Part shown: positions 10,526 to 60,784 of the stretch, piece by piece
Numbering within the stretch: the stretch's first letter is position 1
Layout: each line of letters starts with the position of its first letter
From: Terriglobales bacterium
GTDB lineage: Bacteria > Acidobacteriota > Terriglobia > Terriglobales > Acidobacteriaceae
Assembly (NCBI GenBank): GCA_025934735.1
Contig: JAICWP010000007.1
Location: 124,001-188,000 of the forward strand
Reading direction: 5' to 3'
DNA: 64,000 nt
The notes under the pieces: model-generated
Seen by the model: only the letters and a program-made list of their open reading frames with translations
The model's database searches: none
What the model was told of the DNA's origin: nothing
Made by a program: the position numbers and the translations under genes

Positions 10526-11503
10526 ATGCAGGGAACTTCTGCTTGGCCGGACGACTTTCTCACCGTCCGCGACTTCTCGCCGGCGCAGATTGAGGACTTG
10601 CTGCATCTCGCCGTGCAGATCAAGGCCAACCCTGCCGGCTATTCCAGCGCGCTCCAGGGTAAAACGCTGGCCATGATTTTCGAAAAGCCCTCTCTCCGCA
10701 CGCGGGTCACTTTTGATGTCGGTATTCACCAACTGGGCGGCTTCTCCCTCTACCTCTCGCCGGCGGAAATCAACCTGGGCAAGCGCGAGTCGGTTTATGA
10801 CGTAGCCAAAAATCTCGAACGCATGGTGCAGGGCATCATGATCCGCACCTTCGCCCACCAAATTGTCCAGCGGATGGCTCAATATGCCTCCATTCCTATC
10901 ATCAACGGCCTCACCGACTACAGCCATCCCTGCCAGGCTATGGCTGACTACCTGACCGTGCTCGAAATCAAAGGCCGGGTGGCCGGGCTGAAAGTCGCCT
11001 TCATTGGCGACGGCAACAACGTCGCTCACTCTCTGCTGTTCGCTGGCGCACAGCTGGGCGCTCACGTGTGGGTGGCCACGCCGCCGGGATACGAGCCGCT
11101 TAAGGACGCGCTCTCCTGGGCGCAGAATCGTGCCGCCCAGACTCATGGCAGCTGCACCCTCACCACTGATCCCGTGCGGGCGGTGCGCGATGCCGATGTG
11201 ATTTACACCGACGTCTGGGCCAGCATGGGCCAGGAGAATGAGGCGGAAGCGCGCCGCCAGCACTTTTTGCCCTACCAGGTGAATGGTGCCCTCTTCGCTC
11301 TGGCCAAGCCGGACGCCATTTTCATGCACTGTCTGCCGGCGCACCGCGGCGACGAGGTCACCGACGAGGTCATTGACTGCCCGCGCTCGGTGGTATTTCA
11401 ACAAGCGGAAAATCGTTTGCATGCCCAGAAAGCCATCCTGCTGCAGCTGATGAAGCACTCCGTGGCGGAAGCAGTGGTAGCAGAGGAGTTGGTGCACGTA
11501 TGA
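10526..11503 (+). CDS. arcB: Ornithine carbamoyltransferase
   Basis: This enzyme moves a carbamoyl group between carbamoyl phosphate and ornithine/citrulline. The 325-residue sequence has the carbamoyl-phosphate loop SLRTR (56-60), HPCQAMADY (from His134) and the ornithine-binding HCLPAHRG near residue 270. GGAGGAG lies just before the ATG. It could be biosynthetic (argF) or catabolic (arcB); carbamate kinase downstream favours catabolic use, making ATP from citrulline-derived carbamoyl phosphate. A repeat element starts 4 bp after its stop codon. Confidence 0.93.
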   Translation: MQGTSAWPDDFLTVRDFSPAQIEDLLHLAVQIKANPAGYSSALQGKTLAMIFEKPSLRTRVTFDVGIHQLGGFSLYLSPAEINLGKRESVYDVAKNLERMVQGIMIRTFAHQIVQRMAQYASIPIINGLTDYSHPCQAMADYLTVLEIKGRVAGLKVAFIGDGNNVAHSLLFAGAQLGAHVWVATPPGYEPLKDALSWAQNRAAQTHGSCTLTTDPVRAVRDADVIYTDVWASMGQENEAEARRQHFLPYQVNGALFALAKPDAIFMHCLPAHRGDEVTDEVIDCPRSVVFQQAENRLHAQKAILLQLMKHSVAEAVVAEELVHV

Positions 11504-11506
11504 AAT

Positions 11507-11530
11507 GGGAGTCGGGAGTCAGGAGTCGGT
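11507..11530 (+). repeat. 7-mer tandem array, left arm of element A
   Basis: Three 7-bp units (GGGAGTC, GGGAGTC, AGGAGTC) followed by GGT lie directly after the ornithine carbamoyltransferase gene. The inverted counterpart is at 11652-11665. Between them is a truncated four-helix-bundle reading frame. Confidence 0.75.
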
Positions 11531-11653
11531 ATGAGGGGTTATCGCGGCTTAGTCGTTTGGCAGAAAGCCAGGGAGCTTGTCACGGAGGTAGATCGTGCGA
11601 TATCCGATTTTCCCAAGCACGAGCTCTATGGATATTTGCAAACCTCCTCTTGA
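11531..11653 (+). pseudogene. Truncated four-helix-bundle (S23/IVP-like) gene
   Basis: The 40-codon frame starts MRGYRGLVVWQKARELV and continues into DFPKHELYGYLQTSS before a stop. The first 34 residues match the opening helix of the 23S rRNA intervening-sequence/four-helix-bundle family, normally about 115-130 residues. The rest is missing: after the ELYG turn the sequence runs into the right arm of 7-mer repeats, which supplies the stop codon. It reads as an internal deletion of an element that once carried a complete gene. Confidence 0.65.
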
Positions 11654-11665
11654 CTCCCGACTACC
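11652..11665 (+). repeat. 7-mer tandem array, right (inverted) arm of element A
   Basis: GACTCCC and GACTACC are inverse copies of the units at 11507-11527. The TGA of the truncated four-helix-bundle frame overlaps the first unit. The carbamate kinase start follows 13 bp later. Confidence 0.7.
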
Positions 11666-11678
11666 CAAAGAAGTGAGC

Positions 11679-12680
11679 ATGCCAAGAACAATGCTCCTTG
11701 CCGTGGGCGGCAATTCCCTCATCCGCGCGGGGGAGAAAGGGACTTTTGCCGAACAACTCGCGAACGCTCGGCACACCGCCGCCGCCATCATCGGCCTGAT
11801 TCGCGACGGTTACCGCCTGGTCATCACCCACGGTAATGGACCCCAGGTGGGCGCTGACCTCCTGCGCTCCGAGCGCGCCGCCGATCAGGTTCCCGGCCTT
11901 CCTCTGGACGTGTGTGGCGCCGCCACCCAGGGCGAAATCGGTTACCTGCTGTGCCAGTCGCTGCACGATGAGCTGGGCGCCGCCGGCTTGCACATACCCC
12001 TGGTGAGCGTGATCACCCAGACGGTGGTTTCTCCGGACGATCCTGCCATGCAGCACCCCACCAAGCCCATCGGCCCTTTCTACTCGCGGGCAGATGCCGA
12101 GCAGCGCAAGCGTGCCTTCGGCTGGGAGATCGTGGAGGACGCCGCCCGCGGCTACCGGCGCGTGGTCCCCTCGCCCGAGCCCATCGACATCATTGAGTTG
12201 GAGGTCATCCGCGATCTGGTCGAAGATGGCGTGCTGGTCGTAGCCGTGGGCGGAGGCGGCATTCCCGTGGTGCGCTCCAACGGCACCCTGCAGGGCGTAG
12301 AAGCGGTGATTGATAAGGACCGCGCGTCCGCCCTGCTGGCCTCGCGCCTCAACGTGGACCTGTTCGCCATCTCCACCGATGCCGATTTTGTTTACCGCGA
12401 CTACAAGACGCCGGCGCAGCAGCCGCTCACCCATGTAACCGTTTCCGAAATGGAGACGTATCTTCGGGCCGGCCAGTTCCCTCCCGGCAACATGGGGCCC
12501 AAAGTTGAATCAGCACTGCGCTTTTTGCGCAATGGTGGCCCCGAGGTGATCATCACCTCGTATCAGCATCTGTATGAGGCGGTGGCTGGCCACGCCGGCA
12601 CCCGCATCGTGCGCGATGGCGAATTGGTGGCTGCCGGCGCCGAACAGGAATACGGCACATTGCCGCTGCGAGGCAGGTGA
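11679..12680 (+). CDS. arcC: Carbamate kinase
   Basis: This enzyme makes ATP from carbamoyl phosphate and ADP, releasing carbamate. The 333-residue sequence shows the amino-acid-kinase fold: AVGGNSLI at the start, THGNGPQVG near residue 50, and VAVGGGGIPV in the nucleotide-binding half. The start is the ATG at 11679 with GTGAG before it; an upstream in-frame ATG at 11595 would read through the repeat element and give an unrelated N-terminus. The stop is 4 bp from the next start, so it is coupled to the carbamoyltransferase downstream. Confidence 0.93.
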   Translation: MPRTMLLAVGGNSLIRAGEKGTFAEQLANARHTAAAIIGLIRDGYRLVITHGNGPQVGADLLRSERAADQVPGLPLDVCGAATQGEIGYLLCQSLHDELGAAGLHIPLVSVITQTVVSPDDPAMQHPTKPIGPFYSRADAEQRKRAFGWEIVEDAARGYRRVVPSPEPIDIIELEVIRDLVEDGVLVVAVGGGGIPVVRSNGTLQGVEAVIDKDRASALLASRLNVDLFAISTDADFVYRDYKTPAQQPLTHVTVSEMETYLRAGQFPPGNMGPKVESALRFLRNGGPEVIITSYQHLYEAVAGHAGTRIVRDGELVAAGAEQEYGTLPLRGR

Positions 12681-43948: not shown

Positions 43949-44388
43949 GCCGGAAGCAACCTATCCTGTCAGGCTGAAATGTAAATCCGCGCGCGTGATT
44001 CCCTGGTGCGATGCTAAACCATCCGCCAGCTCCCGTGTCCAACCTTTACACAAATGCTTATCGTGCGCCGCCCGCCAGCAGATGTTCTTCCTGCTGGACT
44101 TGCCCGCTGTTCCGAGACGCCTTCTGCAGGCGCCGCCATCAGCCAGCCGCCGGAAGTGTGTGGGACGGGGCTTCACCCCGGCTGAGCCCGTGTGGGGACG
44201 GGGCTTCGCCCGACGGAGCCCGTGTGGGGACGGGGCTTCGCCCCGTCCAGGGCGAGCGCAGCTCGCCTTCCTTCCATTGGCGATCCTGAGCGCGGCGTGG
44301 AAGCGTACCGCCTGAATCAGCCACTACTCGGTCGCGAATTTCTATATATTTCCTCTGGCGATTAGTTTTCTGATGGGGAGAAAAGCTC
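43949..44388. other. Long intergenic gap with a 32-bp tandem repeat
   Basis: This gap separates the divergent propeller and glycoside hydrolase genes and must hold both promoters. Its clearest content is the tandem repeat at 44158-44253. The rest (43949-44157 and 44254-44388) shows nothing coding. TTTCTATATATTTCC near 44338-44352 is the most promoter-like AT-rich segment. Confidence 0.6.
44158..44253. repeat. Three 32-bp tandem repeats forming GC-rich hairpins
   Basis: Copies begin at 44158, 44190 and 44222 with GTGTGGGGACGGGGCTTC or a close variant. The third folds into GGACGGGGC, loop TTC, GCCCCGTCC (44228-44248), a perfect 9-bp stem. The first two have imperfect stems. Confidence 0.75.
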
Positions 44389-53330: not shown

Positions 53331-54536
53331 ATGGCCCATATGACCACAACCCCGGTGATTGAGCCCGGCCAGGATCGCACCATGATCCTGAACATGGGCC
53401 CGCAGCACCCCTCTACTCATGGCGTGCTGCGTCTCATTCTGGAGATTGACGGGGAAAACGTGGTCCGCATGATGCCGGATATCGGCTACCTGCACACCGG
53501 CATCGAGAAGACCTGCGAAGCCAAGTTCTACCAGCAGGTGGTGCCCCTCACCGACCGCATTGACTACCTCTGTCCGCTCACCAACAACCTGTGCTACGTG
53601 CTGGCGGCGGAGAAGCTGCTGGGCATGGAAATCCCGCCGCGCGCGCAATGGATTCGGGTCATGCTCAACGAACTGACCCGCATCAACTCCCACCTGGTGT
53701 GGCTGGGCACGCATGCTCTCGATATCGGCGCCATGTCGGTTTTCCTTTACTGCTTCCGCGAGCGGGAAGACCTGCTGCGCATCTTTGAGATGGTCAGCGG
53801 CCAGCGCATGATGACCTCCTACTTCCGGGTAGGCGGGCTGGCCTTGGAGCCGCCGCTGGGCTTCTTCGACCGCGTGAAGCACTTCGCCGACCGCTTCCCC
53901 GAAAAAGTTGACGAGTACGAGGGCCTGCTCACTTCCAATCCCATCTGGGTGGAGCGCACCAAGAACGTGGCCTACCTCTCGCCCGAGGACGGCATCGCCA
54001 TCGGCGCTACCGGGCCCACGCTGCGCGCCTCCGGCGTGGATTGGGACCTGCGCCGCGACATGCCCTATTCGAGCTACGAGCAGTTCCAGTTCAAGGTGCC
54101 AGTGCGCGCCGAGGGCGACGTTTTCTCCCGTTACATGGTGCGCGTCGAAGAACTCCGTGAGTCCAACAAGATTGTGCAGCAGGCGCTGGCCGGGCTCCCC
54201 GAAGGCCCCATCAAAGCGGAATCGCCTAAGGTGGTTCTTCCCGAGCGCGAGAAGATGAAGACACAGATGGAAGCCCTCATCTATCACTTCAAAATCATCA
54301 CTGAGGGCTTTACCGTCCCCGCGGGTGAGGTTTACCAGGCCATTGAGTCGCCGCGTGGCGAGATGGGCTACTACGTGGTCAGCGATGGCACCGCCAAGCC
54401 CTACCGCGTGCACATGCGTTCGCCTTCGTTTGTAAACCTGCAGGCGCTGCCCAAAATGTGCGAAGGCCGCCTCATCGCCGACGTGGTCGCCGCCATCGGC
54501 AGCATTGATATCGTGCTCGGCGAGATAGACCGGTAA
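53331..54536 (+). CDS. nuoD: NADH-quinone oxidoreductase subunit D
   Basis: The 401-residue 49-kDa-type subunit forms the quinone site with NuoB. It carries NMGPQHPSTHGVLRLILEIDGE, the HTGIEKTCE segment, EREDLLRIFEMVSGQRMM and the C-terminal CEGRLIADVVAAIGSIDIVLGEIDR. Family His and Tyr residues for quinone binding (in QHPSTHG) are intact. Its stop codon is the first base group of an 8-mer repeat array. Confidence 0.95.
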   Translation: MAHMTTTPVIEPGQDRTMILNMGPQHPSTHGVLRLILEIDGENVVRMMPDIGYLHTGIEKTCEAKFYQQVVPLTDRIDYLCPLTNNLCYVLAAEKLLGMEIPPRAQWIRVMLNELTRINSHLVWLGTHALDIGAMSVFLYCFREREDLLRIFEMVSGQRMMTSYFRVGGLALEPPLGFFDRVKHFADRFPEKVDEYEGLLTSNPIWVERTKNVAYLSPEDGIAIGATGPTLRASGVDWDLRRDMPYSSYEQFQFKVPVRAEGDVFSRYMVRVEELRESNKIVQQALAGLPEGPIKAESPKVVLPEREKMKTQMEALIYHFKIITEGFTVPAGEVYQAIESPRGEMGYYVVSDGTAKPYRVHMRSPSFVNLQALPKMCEGRLIADVVAAIGSIDIVLGEIDR

Positions 54537-54990
54537 TTGAGTGATTGTGTAATCGGGTAATTGTGTAATTGAAAATCGGCGCGAGGTGGTGAGCATGGCG
54601 TCGAAGCCCGAAGATTTAAGAGAGCGCACCAAGAAGTTCGCGCTGCGCATTATCCGATTGTTTCGGGCTCTGCCGAGGAGTGGGGACGCACAGGTCATCG
54701 GCAAGCAGTTGCTCCGCAGTGGCACATCTGTGGCCGCAAATTATCGGGCGGCGTGCCGGGCAAGATCGCGGCAGGAATTTGCCGCGAGAGTTGGAATCGT
54801 AATGGAGGAGTCGGACGAAACGGTGTTCTGGCTGGAGCTCATTTGCGAGTCGGGAATAATGCCGGTTCCCCGCCTGGAGGCTCTACTGAAGGAGGCGCGC
54901 GAACTGGCGGCAATATTCACGGCCTCATACCGCACCGCTCGCAGAAAACGGTCAATTACACAATTACCCGATTACCCGATTACACAATCA
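54534..54990 (+). repeat. 8-mer inverted-array element carrying a complete four-helix-bundle gene
   Basis: The left arm at 54534-54572 has GTGATTGT, GTAATCGG, GTAATTGT, GTAATTGA plus a partial unit that overlaps the nuoD stop. The right arm at 54952-54990 has TCAATTA, CACAATTA, CCCGATTA twice and CACAATCA. The same units form two smaller elements further along the operon. The gene at 54595 is inside; its last codons and stop lie in the right arm. Confidence 0.8.
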
Positions 54991-54993
54991 TGA
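54595..54993 (+). CDS. Four-helix-bundle protein (S23/IVP-like) inside the nuo operon
   Basis: The 132-residue protein matches the four-helix-bundle family related to 23S rRNA intervening-sequence proteins (PF05635/TIGR02436 type): DLRERTKKFALRIIRLFRALP, QLLRSGTSVAANYRAACRARS, and VMEESDETVFWLELICESG. GAGGTGGTGAG precedes the ATG; a GTG at 54586 is also possible. The last residues (SITQLPDYPITQS) are encoded by the right-arm repeats, and the TGA overlaps the nuoE start as ATGA. It is unrelated to complex I and marks an insertion between nuoD and nuoE. Function of the family is not known; some members act with mobile elements. Confidence 0.88.
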   Translation: MASKPEDLRERTKKFALRIIRLFRALPRSGDAQVIGKQLLRSGTSVAANYRAACRARSRQEFAARVGIVMEESDETVFWLELICESGIMPVPRLEALLKEARELAAIFTASYRTARRKRSITQLPDYPITQS

Positions 54994-55472
54994 GGTTTTC
55001 CGACAGCTTCGAGTCCCGCTTCACCTCCATGCTTGGCCACTATCCCACCAAGCGGTCGGTGCTGGTGCCTACCCTGCTCTACATGCAGGACGAGCTTGGC
55101 TACCTTACCGACGAGGCTATCCGCGACATAGCGCAGCGCCTGGAGTTGACCGAACTGGAAGTGCGCAACGTGATCAGCTACTACTCCATGCTCACCACGC
55201 GCCCGCGCGGCAAATATAACGTGCAAGTCTGCCGTAATATCAGCTGCATGCTCTGCGGCGCCGACGATGTCATTGCGCACCTGAAAAAGCGCCTGGGTAT
55301 CGCCCACAAGGGCACGACGGCGGACGGCATGTTCTCCTTCGAGGAAGTGGAGTGCATCGGCGCCTGCAGCTGGGCGCCCGCCATGCAGGTCAACTACGAC
55401 TTCCACGAGAAGCTCACGCCGGAAAACGCGGAGAAGGTTCTGGACGAGTATCGGAGGAAAGGAAGCCAGTGA
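54990..55472 (+). CDS. nuoE: NADH-quinone oxidoreductase subunit E
   Basis: The 160-residue subunit carries a thioredoxin-like [2Fe-2S] cluster: QVCRNISCMLCG has the first pair of Cys (C-x4-C) and VECIGACSWAP the second (C-x3-C). N-terminal helices (YPTKRSVLVPTLLYMQDELGYL) are typical. The ATG at 54990 uses the final base of a repeat arm and overlaps the stop of the four-helix-bundle gene, so translation probably depends on that gene; no ribosome site of its own is visible. Confidence 0.94.
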   Translation: MRFSDSFESRFTSMLGHYPTKRSVLVPTLLYMQDELGYLTDEAIRDIAQRLELTELEVRNVISYYSMLTTRPRGKYNVQVCRNISCMLCGADDVIAHLKKRLGIAHKGTTADGMFSFEEVECIGACSWAPAMQVNYDFHEKLTPENAEKVLDEYRRKGSQ

Positions 55473-55476
55473 TCGT

Positions 55477-55565
55477 GCAATTGGATAATCGGGTAATTGG
55501 GTAAATGAAACCGCCCGCTTCGGTCTTCAATTACCCGATTACTCAATTACCCAATTACTCAATTC
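55477..55565 (+). repeat. Miniature 8-mer inverted-array element, nuoE-nuoF gap
   Basis: The left arm 55477-55508 is GCAATTGG, ATAATCGG, GTAATTGG, GTAAATGA; the right arm 55526-55565 is TTCAATTA, CCCGATTA, CTCAATTA, CCCAATTA, CTCAATTC. A 17-bp core separates them. It begins 4 bp after the nuoE stop. Confidence 0.85.
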
Positions 55566-55582
55566 GTTCCGCTTAGGAATAA

Positions 55583-56893
55583 ATGGCCGATTTAGTAAGC
55601 CATCCCGACGAAGTCAAGGTCGTCTCCCGGCGCTTCGGCCAGGGTGCGGCCAATCTCGACCGCTACCTCGAGCTTGACGGCTACAAGGCCGTGCAGAAGG
55701 CGCTCAGCATCGGCCCCGACGCCGTCATCAATGAGATGAAGGCCTCAAACCTGCGCGGCCGCGGCGGCGCCGGCTTCCCTACCGGCATGAAGTGGAGCTT
55801 CGTCCCCAAGCAGGCACCCAAACCTAAGTACGTCCTCTGCAACGGTGACGAAAGCGAGCCTGGCACCTGCAAGGACCGGCTCATCCTGGAACACGATCCG
55901 CATTCTGTGATCGAAGGCGTGGTGGTGGCCGGCATCGCCGTGGGCTCCCATACTGGCTACATCTACATTCGCGGCGAATACCGCTACCTTTCGGAGATCA
56001 TGCAGAAGGCGCTGGCCGACGCCTACGCTCGCGGCTTTCTCGGCAAAAATATTTTTGGGAGCGGCTACGACTTCGATGTGTACTGGCACGGCGGCGCCGG
56101 CGCCTATGAAGTGGGCGAAGAGTCCGCGCTCATGGAGTCGCTGGAGGGCAAGCGTGGCGTCCCTCGCATTCGCCCGCCATTCCCCGCTGTTGTCGGCCTG
56201 TGGGGCGGCCCCACCGTCATCAACAATGTGGAAACACTGGCCAGCGTTCCCCACATCATGCTGGGCGGCGGCGAATGGTACGCCAGCCTGGGCACTCCCA
56301 AGAACGGCGGCACGCGCCTGTTCTGCCTCAGCGGGCACGTAGCCAAGCCCGGTGTGTACGAGCTGCCGCTCGGCTACAACCTGAAGAAGATGATCTTCGA
56401 AGTCGGCGGCGGCATCCGCGACGGCAATAAACTCAAGGCCGTTACCCCCGGCGGCTCTTCCACCCCGGTGCTTAAGGCCGACGAATGCGATGTAGGCATG
56501 GATTTCGACCAGCTCATGAAAGCCGGCTCCATGCTGGGCTCTGGCGGCGTGGTCGTGCTCGACGACACCACCTGCATGGTCAAGTATCTGCAGCGCATCA
56601 TGATGTTCTACCAGCACGAGAGCTGCGGCTGGTGCATTCCCTGCCGCGAAGGCACGGACTGGCTTAAGAAGACGCTCAACCGCTTCCATGCTGGCGGCGG
56701 TGTGGAAAAGGACATTGGCAACATTCAGTACCTGGCGGAAAACATGCTTGGCCGCACATTCTGCCCCTTGGGCGATGCGGCCGCCATGCCCGCGATTTCC
56801 ATTGTGAAGAAGTATCGGAACGAGTTTGAGGATCACCTGAACGGACGGCCCTGCCCGTTGGAGGCGAAAGCGCTTGAGGCGGTGCCGGCCTGA
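55583..56893 (+). CDS. nuoF: NADH-quinone oxidoreductase subunit F
   Basis: The 436-residue subunit binds NADH, FMN and a [4Fe-4S] cluster. Motifs: LRGRGGAGFPTGMKW (NADH), CNGDESEPGTCKDR (FMN), WHGGAGAYEVGEESALMESLEGKRGVPRIRPP, and cluster ligands in ESCGWCIPCREGTDW with the last Cys in RTFCPLGDAA. TTAGGAA precedes the ATG. It is flanked on both sides by 8-mer elements. Confidence 0.95.
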   Translation: MADLVSHPDEVKVVSRRFGQGAANLDRYLELDGYKAVQKALSIGPDAVINEMKASNLRGRGGAGFPTGMKWSFVPKQAPKPKYVLCNGDESEPGTCKDRLILEHDPHSVIEGVVVAGIAVGSHTGYIYIRGEYRYLSEIMQKALADAYARGFLGKNIFGSGYDFDVYWHGGAGAYEVGEESALMESLEGKRGVPRIRPPFPAVVGLWGGPTVINNVETLASVPHIMLGGGEWYASLGTPKNGGTRLFCLSGHVAKPGVYELPLGYNLKKMIFEVGGGIRDGNKLKAVTPGGSSTPVLKADECDVGMDFDQLMKAGSMLGSGGVVVLDDTTCMVKYLQRIMMFYQHESCGWCIPCREGTDWLKKTLNRFHAGGGVEKDIGNIQYLAENMLGRTFCPLGDAAAMPAISIVKKYRNEFEDHLNGRPCPLEAKALEAVPA

Positions 56894-57008
56894 GAGATTG
56901 TGTAATCGGGTAATTGTGTAATCGGGCAATTGGGGCGGTATTCGGCTCAGCTGCTGGTGCAATCGGTTTCAAATTACACAATTACTGAATTACACAATTA
57001 CTCAATTT
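56894..57008 (+). repeat. Miniature 8-mer inverted-array element, nuoF-nuoG gap
   Basis: The left arm 56894-56933 has five units: GAGATTGT, GTAATCGG, GTAATTGT, GTAATCGG, GCAATTGG. The right arm 56969-57008 has TCAAATTA, CACAATTA, CTGAATTA, CACAATTA, CTCAATTT. The core is 35 bp. The element occupies the whole gap, from the base after the nuoF stop to 3 bp before nuoG. Confidence 0.85.
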
Positions 57009-57011
57009 CTT

Positions 57012-59387: not shown

Positions 59388-59730
59388 AGTTTCACGTTTC
59401 AAGCTTTCCCAGGTTTCAGGGTTTCCCAGTTTTCAAGGTTGCCCAGTTTTCAAGGTTTTAGAGGTTTCAGACGTTTCAAGCTGTCACAGGTTTTAAGGCT
59501 TCACAGCTTTCAAATGTTCCAAAGTTTCTCACGTTGCAAGGGATGTATGCCCTTGCTTAATGGAGGCGTCATCCTGAGGACCTTCAGGTCCGAAGGATCT
59601 CGCGTGCACTTCCAGGCACACGGCTTTTCCGAAGGCCCGCCGCCAAAGGCAGAGGGCACGATTTTTTAAACTTTGCGAGCTTGAAACTTTGAAAGCGTGT
59701 TGTCAGAGAGGTTGAAGGCAGGACACACAG
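59388..59730 (+). repeat. Repeat-filled gap between nuoG and nuoH
   Basis: The 343-bp gap holds no gene. From 59388 to about 59540 it is an array of about seventeen loosely matching 8-9-bp units of the TTTCAAGG or TTCCCAGG type. A dispersed repeat follows (GTCATCCTGAGGA at 59568, CGAAGGATCTCGCG at 59591). An inverted arm, AAACTTTGCGAGCTTGAAAC and on, spans 59668-59697. The layout mirrors the other inverted-array elements with a different unit. Confidence 0.7.
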
Positions 59731-60768
59731 TTGACCCTCGGCACTTTTATTATCGTTTCCGTTATCAAGATCGTGATCGCGCTCTTCGTGTTGCTCACCG
59801 GCGTGGCCTACACGGTCTGGCTGGAGCGCAAGCTCGTGGGGCGAATCCAGAACCGCTGGGGCCCCACCCGCGTTGGCCCCTTCGGCCTGCTGCAGCCTCT
59901 GGCCGACGGCGCCAAATTCCTGTTCAAGGAAGACATCACGCCGCCCCACGTCTATAAGCCGCTGTACATCGCGGCGCCCATGATCGCCATGATTTTCGCC
60001 GTCACCTCCATGGCAGTCATCCCCATTGGCGACTGGGTCACTGTGGCCGGCGTGCACACGCCCCTGCAGATCACCGATGTCAACATCGGCCTGCTCATCA
60101 TCCTGGGCATCACCTCCATCGGCGTCTATGGCATTGCGCTGGCGGGCTGGGCTTCGAACAGCAAGTATTCCCTGCTGGGCGGGTTGCGCGCCACGGCGCA
60201 GATGATCAGCTATGAAGTCGCGTTGGGGCTCTCGCTCGTGGGTGTGCTCATCCTCTCTGGCACTTTTAGCCTGCGCGGCATTGTGGATGCACAGGCCGGA
60301 ACCTGGTGGGGCTGGCTGCCCAAGTGGAATTTCTTTCAGGGCCAGTTTGTTGCGTTCTTTGTTTATCTGATGGCGGCCTTCGCGGAAACCAACCGCGTGC
60401 CCTTCGATTTGCCGGAAGCGGAAACCGAACTGGTGGCCGGTTACCACACCGAGTACAGTGCCATGAAATTCGCCATGTTTTTCATGGCAGAATACGCCAA
60501 CATGTTTACCGTGGCATGCCTGGCTTCGCTGCTGTTCCTGGGCGGCTGGCATGGCCCGCTGTTTGGCCCAACCTGGCTGCAGGAAATCCTGCCCGTGTTC
60601 TGGTTCGCGCTGCGGGTGTTCGCGTTCATCTTTCTGTACATCTGGATTCGCGGCACCCTGCCCCGTTTCCGTTACGACCAGCTCATGAAATTCGGCTGGA
60701 AGGTGCTGCTGCCCCTGGCCGTTGCGAACCTGGTGATCACGGGCCTGGTGGTAGCGCTAAGAGCGTAG
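59731..60768 (+). CDS. nuoH: NADH-quinone oxidoreductase subunit H
   Basis: The 345-residue membrane subunit forms the quinone entry with NuoB and NuoD. Signatures: TVWLERKLVGRIQNRWGPTRVGPFGLLQPLADGAKFLFKE and ETNRVPFDLPEAETELVAGYHTEYS. Eight helices are expected. The start is a TTG at 59731 with AGGCAGGA upstream. The stop codon overlaps a 7-mer repeat. nuoI, normally next, is absent. Confidence 0.94.
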   Translation: MTLGTFIIVSVIKIVIALFVLLTGVAYTVWLERKLVGRIQNRWGPTRVGPFGLLQPLADGAKFLFKEDITPPHVYKPLYIAAPMIAMIFAVTSMAVIPIGDWVTVAGVHTPLQITDVNIGLLIILGITSIGVYGIALAGWASNSKYSLLGGLRATAQMISYEVALGLSLVGVLILSGTFSLRGIVDAQAGTWWGWLPKWNFFQGQFVAFFVYLMAAFAETNRVPFDLPEAETELVAGYHTEYSAMKFAMFFMAEYANMFTVACLASLLFLGGWHGPLFGPTWLQEILPVFWFALRVFAFIFLYIWIRGTLPRFRYDQLMKFGWKVLLPLAVANLVITGLVVALRA

Positions 60769-60784
60769 GAGTCGGGAGTCGGCC
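60767..60784 (+). repeat. 7-mer array overlapping the nuoH stop codon
   Basis: AGGAGTC and GGGAGTC, then GGCC, begin within the TAG of nuoH. They match the left-arm units at 11507-11527. I see no matching inverted arm in this gap, so the element may be incomplete. Confidence 0.6.

Follow-up and report, generated by a model that had tools for sequence, protein, structure and literature searches.

The STRR sequences of cyanobacteria are heptameric intergenic repeats. In the accessible parts of their paper, Rehm et al. (2015, PMC4692102) describe a GGGAATC repeat at 186 and 183 sites in two Xanthomonas genomes, with 70 convergent inverted pairs in Xcc, 75 in Xac and a preference for four units. 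There the heptamers, which also include the GGGGA(C/T)T repeats of Nostoc, are mostly intergenic and lie between aligned ORFs, and in 2015 the role of the GGGAATC type was still to be elucidated (PMC4692102). TAACTGA repeats have been described in the Beggiatoaceae (MacGregor 2015, PMC4679880). The portions available of these two papers name no partner gene for the heptamers and contain the words "four helix" in neither case, and "23S" does not occur in those of PMC4692102. The S23 protein family (PF05635) is described in excerpts from another literature as a pentamer of four-helix bundles (PMC4990558, PMC10053308) that is said to lack a known function (PMC4990558); its gene can be held in rRNA IVS, which have complementary borders (PMC4990558). 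The domain family cd16375 contains Avd together with the IVS-encoded proteins, and an alignment of structure 2GSC with 4DWL is mentioned (PMC10053308, in the part available). Two further papers (PMC8700078 and PMC10910872) mention the S23 family, with no such repeats in the accessible portions of their text.

The window analyzed here is a stretch of 64,000 nucleotides from a Terriglobales bacterium (contig JAICWP010000007.1 of assembly GCA_025934735.1). At 11507-11667, between argF and arcC, it contains a 40-codon fragment of a PF05635 (S23 / 23S rRNA-IVP) gene flanked by inverted arrays of the heptamer GGGAGTC (Table 1), the left one of which begins 3 bases past the argF-like stop codon. The remnant ORF matches the PF05635 profile at positions 3-31 of 106 (E = 7.1e-5) and can be assigned to the family as a fragment, its 23.4 bits lying below the whole-protein cut-off of 33.8 because only the first third of the S23 gene is left. 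An earlier note on this DNA had proposed an S23-like gene framed by inverted 7-bp arrays, and both the profile match and the inverted arms bear this out. The array, the arm pairing, and the fold of the remnant each exceed chance: the window contains 5 occurrences of two tandem GGGAGTC units (at most 2 mismatches) where 0.55 are expected, and none of 100 shuffles reaches 5; the left-right arm alignment scores 29, which was equalled by 1 of 5000 random segment pairs; and as single-stranded DNA the remnant folds with z = -3.56 (DNA parameters), no shuffle being equally stable.

Read most simply, the remnant is a full S23 element that has lost most of its gene and kept its arms, and therefore a step towards a gene-less cassette, in agreement with the earlier description of a gene cut to 40 codons and intermediate between full and miniature forms. 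The best identity of its protein to the collected S23 proteins is 64% (over 33 residues), to genes with other units; that the closest relatives among the collected genes are without GGGAGTC is, as far as these sequences go, a point against this reading. For the remnant, the match between clade and unit cannot be read, since the fragment is short and its relatives are so distant that at 64% identity sharing of a unit is not expected.

Table 1. Features of the window around the remnant and of the other S23-type and array sites (gene names of the argF-like, arcC-like, and nuo-like genes are presumed from reading the sequence)
Feature	Position in window	Strand	Remarks
argF-like ornithine carbamoyltransferase gene (presumed)	10526..11503	+	325-aa ORF; orthologous junction in relatives
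Left arm: GGGAGTC GGGAGTC AGGAGTC + GG, three tandem heptamers	11507..11529	+	
5' S23 (PF05635) gene fragment, 40 codons	11531..11653	+	profile positions 3-31 retained, remainder lost ahead of right arm
Right arm, inverted left array (CTCTTGACTCCCGACTACCCA on + strand)	11647..11667	-	contains the stop codon TGA (11651-11653)
arcC-like carbamate kinase gene (presumed), downstream neighbor	11679..12680	+	ATG at 11679
Second S23 element of the window	54533..54993	+	intact gene 54586-54993, PF05635 54.3 bits; inverted arrays of an 8-bp unit; gap between nuo-like genes
Gene-less cassette, inverted arms, 8-bp unit of the 54533..54993 element	55479..55564	.	next gap of the nuo-like operon
Gene-less cassette, inverted arms, 8-bp unit of the 54533..54993 element	56897..57010	.	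further gap of the nuo-like operon
Array-only GGGAGTC site (AGGAGTCGGGAGTC)	60767..60780	+	no S23 match adjoining

Across the whole source genome, tandem GGGAGTC (at most 1 mismatch) gave 23 hits in 18 arrays, with 1 hit for the reversed pattern. Besides the two remnant arms there are thus 16 other arrays; judged by eye from their flanks, these are mostly intergenic, with one (C45:61349) apparently inside a gene, and one site (L007) is a short hairpin cassette. At another place (L006 1501-2040, C46:122132-122671) two GGGAGTC arrays, again by eye, point outward, '-' then '+', the reverse of the usual order, and flank an unrelated gene. Despite the 16 further arrays, no intact S23 gene with the GGGAGTC unit was found in this genome. 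As there are more arrays without an S23 gene than with one, an array alone is no marker of the gene. PF05635 has three matches in the genome at the search threshold, the argF-arcC fragment not being among them: an S23 gene on C45 with AGTTCTC arms, the intact gene of the window at 54586-54993, and a decayed fragment on C5. This second decayed S23 fragment (L003 1486-1756) covers positions 53-87 in our own profile model, and what may be traces of arms can be made out by eye on both sides. Within the window, three successive gaps of the nuo-like operon (54533-57010) carry one 8-base unit, a full element and two miniatures standing side by side. Elsewhere in the window we observed an array of GTTTCAAGG / GTTTCAGAG-like units of 8-9 bases at 59396-59512, perhaps of another unit family and without an S23 match, and a 32-base unit in 2.7 tandem copies at 44156-44245.

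We compared the junction DNA with 61 genomes, the source genome included, and five relatives align on both sides of the argF-arcC gap, which is 175 bases long in the source genome. The gaps of two of these relatives, G014 and G027 (450 and 447 bases), contain full-length S23 genes between inverted arrays, the units of which differ from GGGAGTC and from each other, and those of G003 and G031 (25 and 58 bases) and of G029 (∼73 bases, hairpin-like, counted by eye) are without an S23 gene. The filled (175, 447, 450) and empty (25, 58) gaps are too diverged in sequence for a target site duplication to be read from their comparison. The G014 and G027 S23 proteins are only 47% identical and stand apart on the protein tree, and this, with their different units, gives no support to a single vertically inherited insertion. 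Given these different units and ungrouped proteins, different S23 lineages have probably occupied the gap on more than one occasion.

PF05635 is present in 83 of 120 genomes, the source genome and 119 relatives. The matches listed for these genomes hold 157 distinct S23 genes, an incomplete sample of those in the relatives; 149 are full length (8 are not), and with one short of flanking sequence 148 were used. The first S23 profile omitted 10 of 30 seed loci, those on the opposite strand. When the left flank of each gene was aligned with the reverse complement of its own right flank the median score was 39, compared with 16 for the right flank of another element and 16 for the direct orientation. 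With the arm threshold set at 25, 136 of the 148 genes among the matches listed are framed and 12 fall below. A sample from other phyla, 80 named S23 loci that are the best 80 of 589, left 76 loci once 4 short of flank were set aside, and 60 of these are framed (16 are below threshold), compared with 3.9% of mismatched pairs. As a control we took the longest other gene of each locus; 0 of 142 such genes in the first sample and 2 of 72 in the second are framed. Hence the S23 gene and the arms go together in many phyla; the claim that gene and arrays form one system is upheld, and the arrays are not equally present beside unrelated genes, an outcome that had been named as one that would overturn it.

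A period of 7 is seen in 41 of the 46 left flanks, and in 60 of the 68 right flanks, whose arrays score at least 14, and the median arm is 30 bases long, about four units. The stop codon of the remnant ORF lies inside the right arm, as had been proposed; this is no general rule, holding for 43 of the 136 framed genes, with the stop before the arm in 79 and after it in 14. Purifying selection acts on the S23 protein (21 pairs, median pN/pS of 0.20), and the solved structures 2gsc and 2rld have five chains per entry. A location inside rRNA for the loci whose arms are weak or missing was considered and rejected, as 20 S23 loci of other phyla, mostly of the weak or armless kind, gave 0 Rfam matches at the gathering threshold.

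For the relation between unit and protein we used the 136 framed elements, leaving out the 12 of 148 without arms. The unit is shared by 16 of 1733 pairs of elements with proteins below 40% identity, 47 of 2710 at 40-45% (63 of 4443 below 45%), 51 of 2212 at 45-50%, 57 of 1576 at 50-55%, 92 of 648 at 55-60%, 106 of 280 at 60-70%, and 19 of 21 at 70% or more, and 20 of these last 21 pairs come from different genomes. In a Mantel comparison of unit with protein, r = 0.22, with a null standard deviation of 0.025 and a maximum of 0.085 in 999 permutations. The link survives when every pair is removed whose flanking ORFs are homologous and agree in side and strand: a unit is then shared by 113 of 6639 pairs below 50%, 124 of 2129 at 50-60%, 65 of 204 at 60-70%, and 4 of 5 at 70% or more. 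On the maximum-likelihood protein tree, labeled with the 14 unit classes of three or more members (85 of the 136 rows), there are 27 unit changes compared with 64.0 ± 2.0 after shuffling; because these tests count related sequences, the most conservative version takes one row per site (41 rows), and this gives 17 changes against 30.7 ± 1.3. The direction of the unit relative to the gene is the same in 388 pairs and opposite in 38. Unit thus tracks S23 protein clade, with its orientation to the gene kept. The earlier note had held that each subfamily has its own unit and had suggested sorting S23 genes by flanking unit as the check; done in this way, protein clades do match units.

A unit set by the host genome was rejected, only 5 of 165 same-genome pairs having a common unit, and genome labels placed on the tree give 62 changes compared with 69.2 ± 1.8 shuffled, a slight genome effect. 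Pairs from one site with saturated synonymous sites still have their units in common, which would hardly be expected of neutral non-coding DNA, and the unit of the arms at a given site may differ from one species to another. In a search for protein columns going with the unit, domain positions 50, 8, 101, and 70 lead, but negative columns are nearly as strong and the pairs are not independent, and we attach no significance to these positions.

The genus of Xanthomonas codiaei connects these elements to the published heptamers. Its S23 gene is found in 28 of 31 genomes, as one copy in 25 of the 28, and 29 of 30 S23 loci have arms (flanks of 250 and 300 bases, scored with no mismatched-pair control); these loci are probably in large part orthologues at one site and non-independent. 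Proteins 77-88% identical to the solved XCC0516 stretch have GGGAATC/GGGAGTG-type units, those at 63-68% GGGATTC-type units, and those at 52-54% GGGGACC or CGGGACC, with one protein at 55% being without arms. An exact GGGAATC is present in 22 of 30 left flanks, and the right arms carry the variants GGGAATA, GGGAGTC, and GGGAATG with no exact copy. Rotating the complement of AGTTATC, one of the units seen here, gives the TAACTGA of the Beggiatoaceae.

We then counted AGTTCTC and AGCTYTT across 110 genomes, each pattern match being one hit (so that a long array gives several), subtracting the elements' own arms and defining a carrier loosely, as a genome with an S23 gene that has the unit at no more than 2 mismatches in either flank, among the matches listed. 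The 9 AGTTCTC carriers have a median of 82 extra hits compared with 0 in 101 non-carriers, of which 14% have at least 10 (p = 2.7e-7), and the 8 AGCTYTT carriers a median of 39 compared with 0 in 102 others, 13% with at least 10 (p = 1.6e-7). Outside the carrier set, which draws on the S23 genes among the matches listed, AGTTCTC is also abundant in G005 (136), G028 (95), G017 (41), G072 (40), G094 (33), and G037 (32), and AGCTYTT in G054 (72), G050 (63), and G003 and G004 (22 each). In other phyla, tandem GGGGACC gave 77 and 143 hits in two unit-bearing genomes and at most 18 in ten others, the genome with 18 also giving 16 with the reversed control, and GGTGAAT gave 48 in the unit-bearing genome, eleven others reaching no more than 2. 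Whichever of the four units is counted, its carrier genomes therefore greatly exceed most others in cognate hits, which in part belong to short inverted cassettes that lack the gene.

In 17 hand-chosen loci of two genomes of one genus, G108 and G101, there are 21 cassettes of 88-303 bp with '+' then '-' arms; none has an S23 match inside, and the sole S23 gene of those loci lies outside the cassettes. Three of the 15 G108 interiors are homologous (78-80% identity), one of these being inverted, and the other 12 have no clear relative among the set, one short 24-base match apart. With only 3 of 15 clearly homologous, we rejected the idea that the cassettes are copies of one another; a simple copying model does not predict 12 unrelated interiors. 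Eight orthologous gaps compared by eye hold cassettes in both genomes, and the whole unit differs at two sites (5471, 8294) and the outer unit at one (15443). At L286 8294-8474 and 15443-15639 an array of one unit lies outside the arms of a second unit, as though one cassette had entered the loop of another. By eye, the cassette interior at L286 18778-18979 looks inverted relative to the orthologous G101 site, the flanks being collinear, a possible inversion between the arms. These unit changes, nesting, and inverted interiors are signs of movement or exchange, with no event caught in the act. No insertion with target duplication was caught among filled and empty comparisons, which are between genera, the one-genus sites all being occupied (8 of 8), and three G101 S23 loci compared with G108 yielded no clean empty S23 site. 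A 142-base insertion in G101 at L166 1227-1368 is a palindromic repeat (∼130 bases) that is absent from the orthologous place in G108 and has more than 20 related matches there; we rejected it as an S23-type cassette event, since it belongs to another palindromic, mobile repeat family. A further repeat (CGCCCCGCAAGCGGGG...), at L034 76-193, has many matches in G108.

How might such elements otherwise be explained? The arms could pair in the operon mRNA with the S23 gene as the loop, which RNase III or another nuclease would trim, making this an IVS-like RNA element. The complementary borders of S23-bearing rRNA IVS, as described in the part of PMC4990558 available, are in keeping with this idea, as is the fold of the remnant strand, and so is placement: of 131 elements with recognizable neighbors, 67 have a gene of the element's direction on both sides, and behind a co-directional upstream gene the left arm generally begins only a few bases past the stop codon (median 5 bases, 96 elements). 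The remaining 64 are not fully co-directional, however, and selection on a stem should leave an excess of G.U among the arm mismatches, whereas we counted 149 G.U and 142 A.C (p = 0.73). On this test we rejected selection on an RNA stem, and the likeness of the arms is probably not maintained by pairing in sense RNA. The RNA explanation would also leave the dispersed cognate arrays without a gene unaccounted for, and among 20 loci from other phyla, most with weak arms or none, there was no Rfam match; we consider it unlikely. About equally improbable, in our judgement, is that the arrays are slippage repeats or stop-codon hairpins and that S23 genes merely insert into pre-existing hairpins. 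Rehm et al. cite slippage for heptamers in the accessible text of PMC4692102, array-only sites outnumber S23 sites, and the nested or unit-changing cassettes and the mostly unrelated G108 interiors would all fit. This explanation nevertheless predicts that the unit goes with the host, and it is shared in just 5 of 165 same-genome pairs compared with 19 of 21 pairs with proteins at least 70% identical, nearly all of them cross-genome (20 of 21); nor would slippage make a second, inverted arm or keep the orientation of the unit to the gene.

The arms might instead be regulatory or terminator hairpins of the host, bound by S23 as a regulator without mobility, with copies spread by ordinary recombination. 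The tight placement behind stop codons and the near-universal, mostly single-copy S23 gene in the genus of X. codiaei are what such a regulator might show. Yet orthologous gaps may be empty or may be occupied by another S23 lineage or by unrelated units, and one interior family occurs at three sites, once inverted, which suggests movement, so that we regard this as the least probable of the three, and a distinctly remote one.

The reading we favor, with rather better than even confidence, is that the remnant is a decayed element of a kind consisting of an S23 gene between inverted arrays of a short, usually 7-base, unit. The S23 pentamer of four-helix bundles would recognize the cognate unit in the arms; acting by itself or together with an enzyme, of the host or yet to be identified, it would drive the copying or exchange of segments bounded by arms, in cis for its own element and in trans for the gene-less cassettes. 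If the protein reads the arms specifically, the parallel change of clade and unit would be accounted for. Given the lack of a G.U excess in the arm mismatches, we favor a role at the level of DNA, in which S23 would mark or join the two arms. To our knowledge PF05635 has no catalytic activity, and we know of no cutting activity for the S23 protein. Weighing against this reading are the genomes rich in hits outside the carrier set, the S23 loci below the arm threshold, the change of unit at single sites, the 12 unrelated G108 interiors, which somewhat lowered our confidence in it and in the wider possibility below, and the 16 further GGGAGTC arrays of a genome in which no intact S23 gene with that unit was found. 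At the remnant, most of the gene would have been lost while the arms stayed.

A wider possibility, to which we give somewhat less than even chances, is that S23 is the missing partner of the heptameric repeats (GGGAATC, TAACTGA, perhaps STRR) and represents a new mobile or array-building class, in which the pentamer would read a clade-specific 7-base word and spread both gene and cassettes while the code evolves. The link between S23 and heptamers gives the protein a partner and the repeats a possible origin across many phyla, and the natural pairs of protein clade and 7-base unit listed here, some of them near the solved 2gsc, make a protein-DNA recognition code testable. If S23 moves or builds arrays, its recombination activity would be of a kind not found in the known families of transposases, recombinases, and reverse transcriptases.

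S23 in rRNA IVS, heptamer repeats, and the logic of RAYT/REPIN are each known separately, and their union may be new: we found no paper joining S23 genes with heptamer arrays in open-access full text, and a subscription paper or preprint may exist. The S23 arrays share with the heptameric intergenic repeats their period, their tandem arrangement between aligned ORFs, and their convergent pairs, and differ in having a partner gene, which the available text of the published descriptions does without. With 23S rRNA IVS they share a protein family inside complementary borders (PMC4990558, in the part available), but S23/heptamer elements lie between protein genes, as the remnant does between argF and arcC and not inside an rRNA gene, and they have clade-specific array arms, dispersed copies, and no sign of selection for RNA pairing. 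The Avd protein of diversity-generating retroelements has a fold related to that of S23. MITEs are likewise short gene-less segments with terminal inverted repeats, which the remnant, too, possesses as do insertion sequences, whereas the S23 cassettes have no shown target duplication and no known transposase sharing their ends, and most G108 interiors are unrelated. The closest likeness is to RAYT/REPIN systems, in which, according to the accessible portion of PMC3116915, a low-copy gene is linked with short repeats, and the genome contains numerous inverted doublets of the cognate repeat that lack the gene; dispersed cognate doublets occur in the carriers here as well, as seen in the hit counts and in the 21 doublets of chosen loci in two genomes. 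The S23 protein is PF05635 and not a tyrosine transposase, PF05635 being the sole match below E = 0.1 for the two S23 ORFs of the window with no tyrosine (Y1/HUH) transposase among their matches, and the S23 units are tandem heptamers in inverted arms where the RAYT/REPIN repeats are palindromes of 20-40 bases. Since the defining features of both RAYT/REPIN and rRNA IVS are thus absent, we rate the S23/heptamer element as a new kind, one that may be RAYT/REPIN-like in its logic while using an unrelated protein, the binding and mobility of which we infer from the sequence comparisons.
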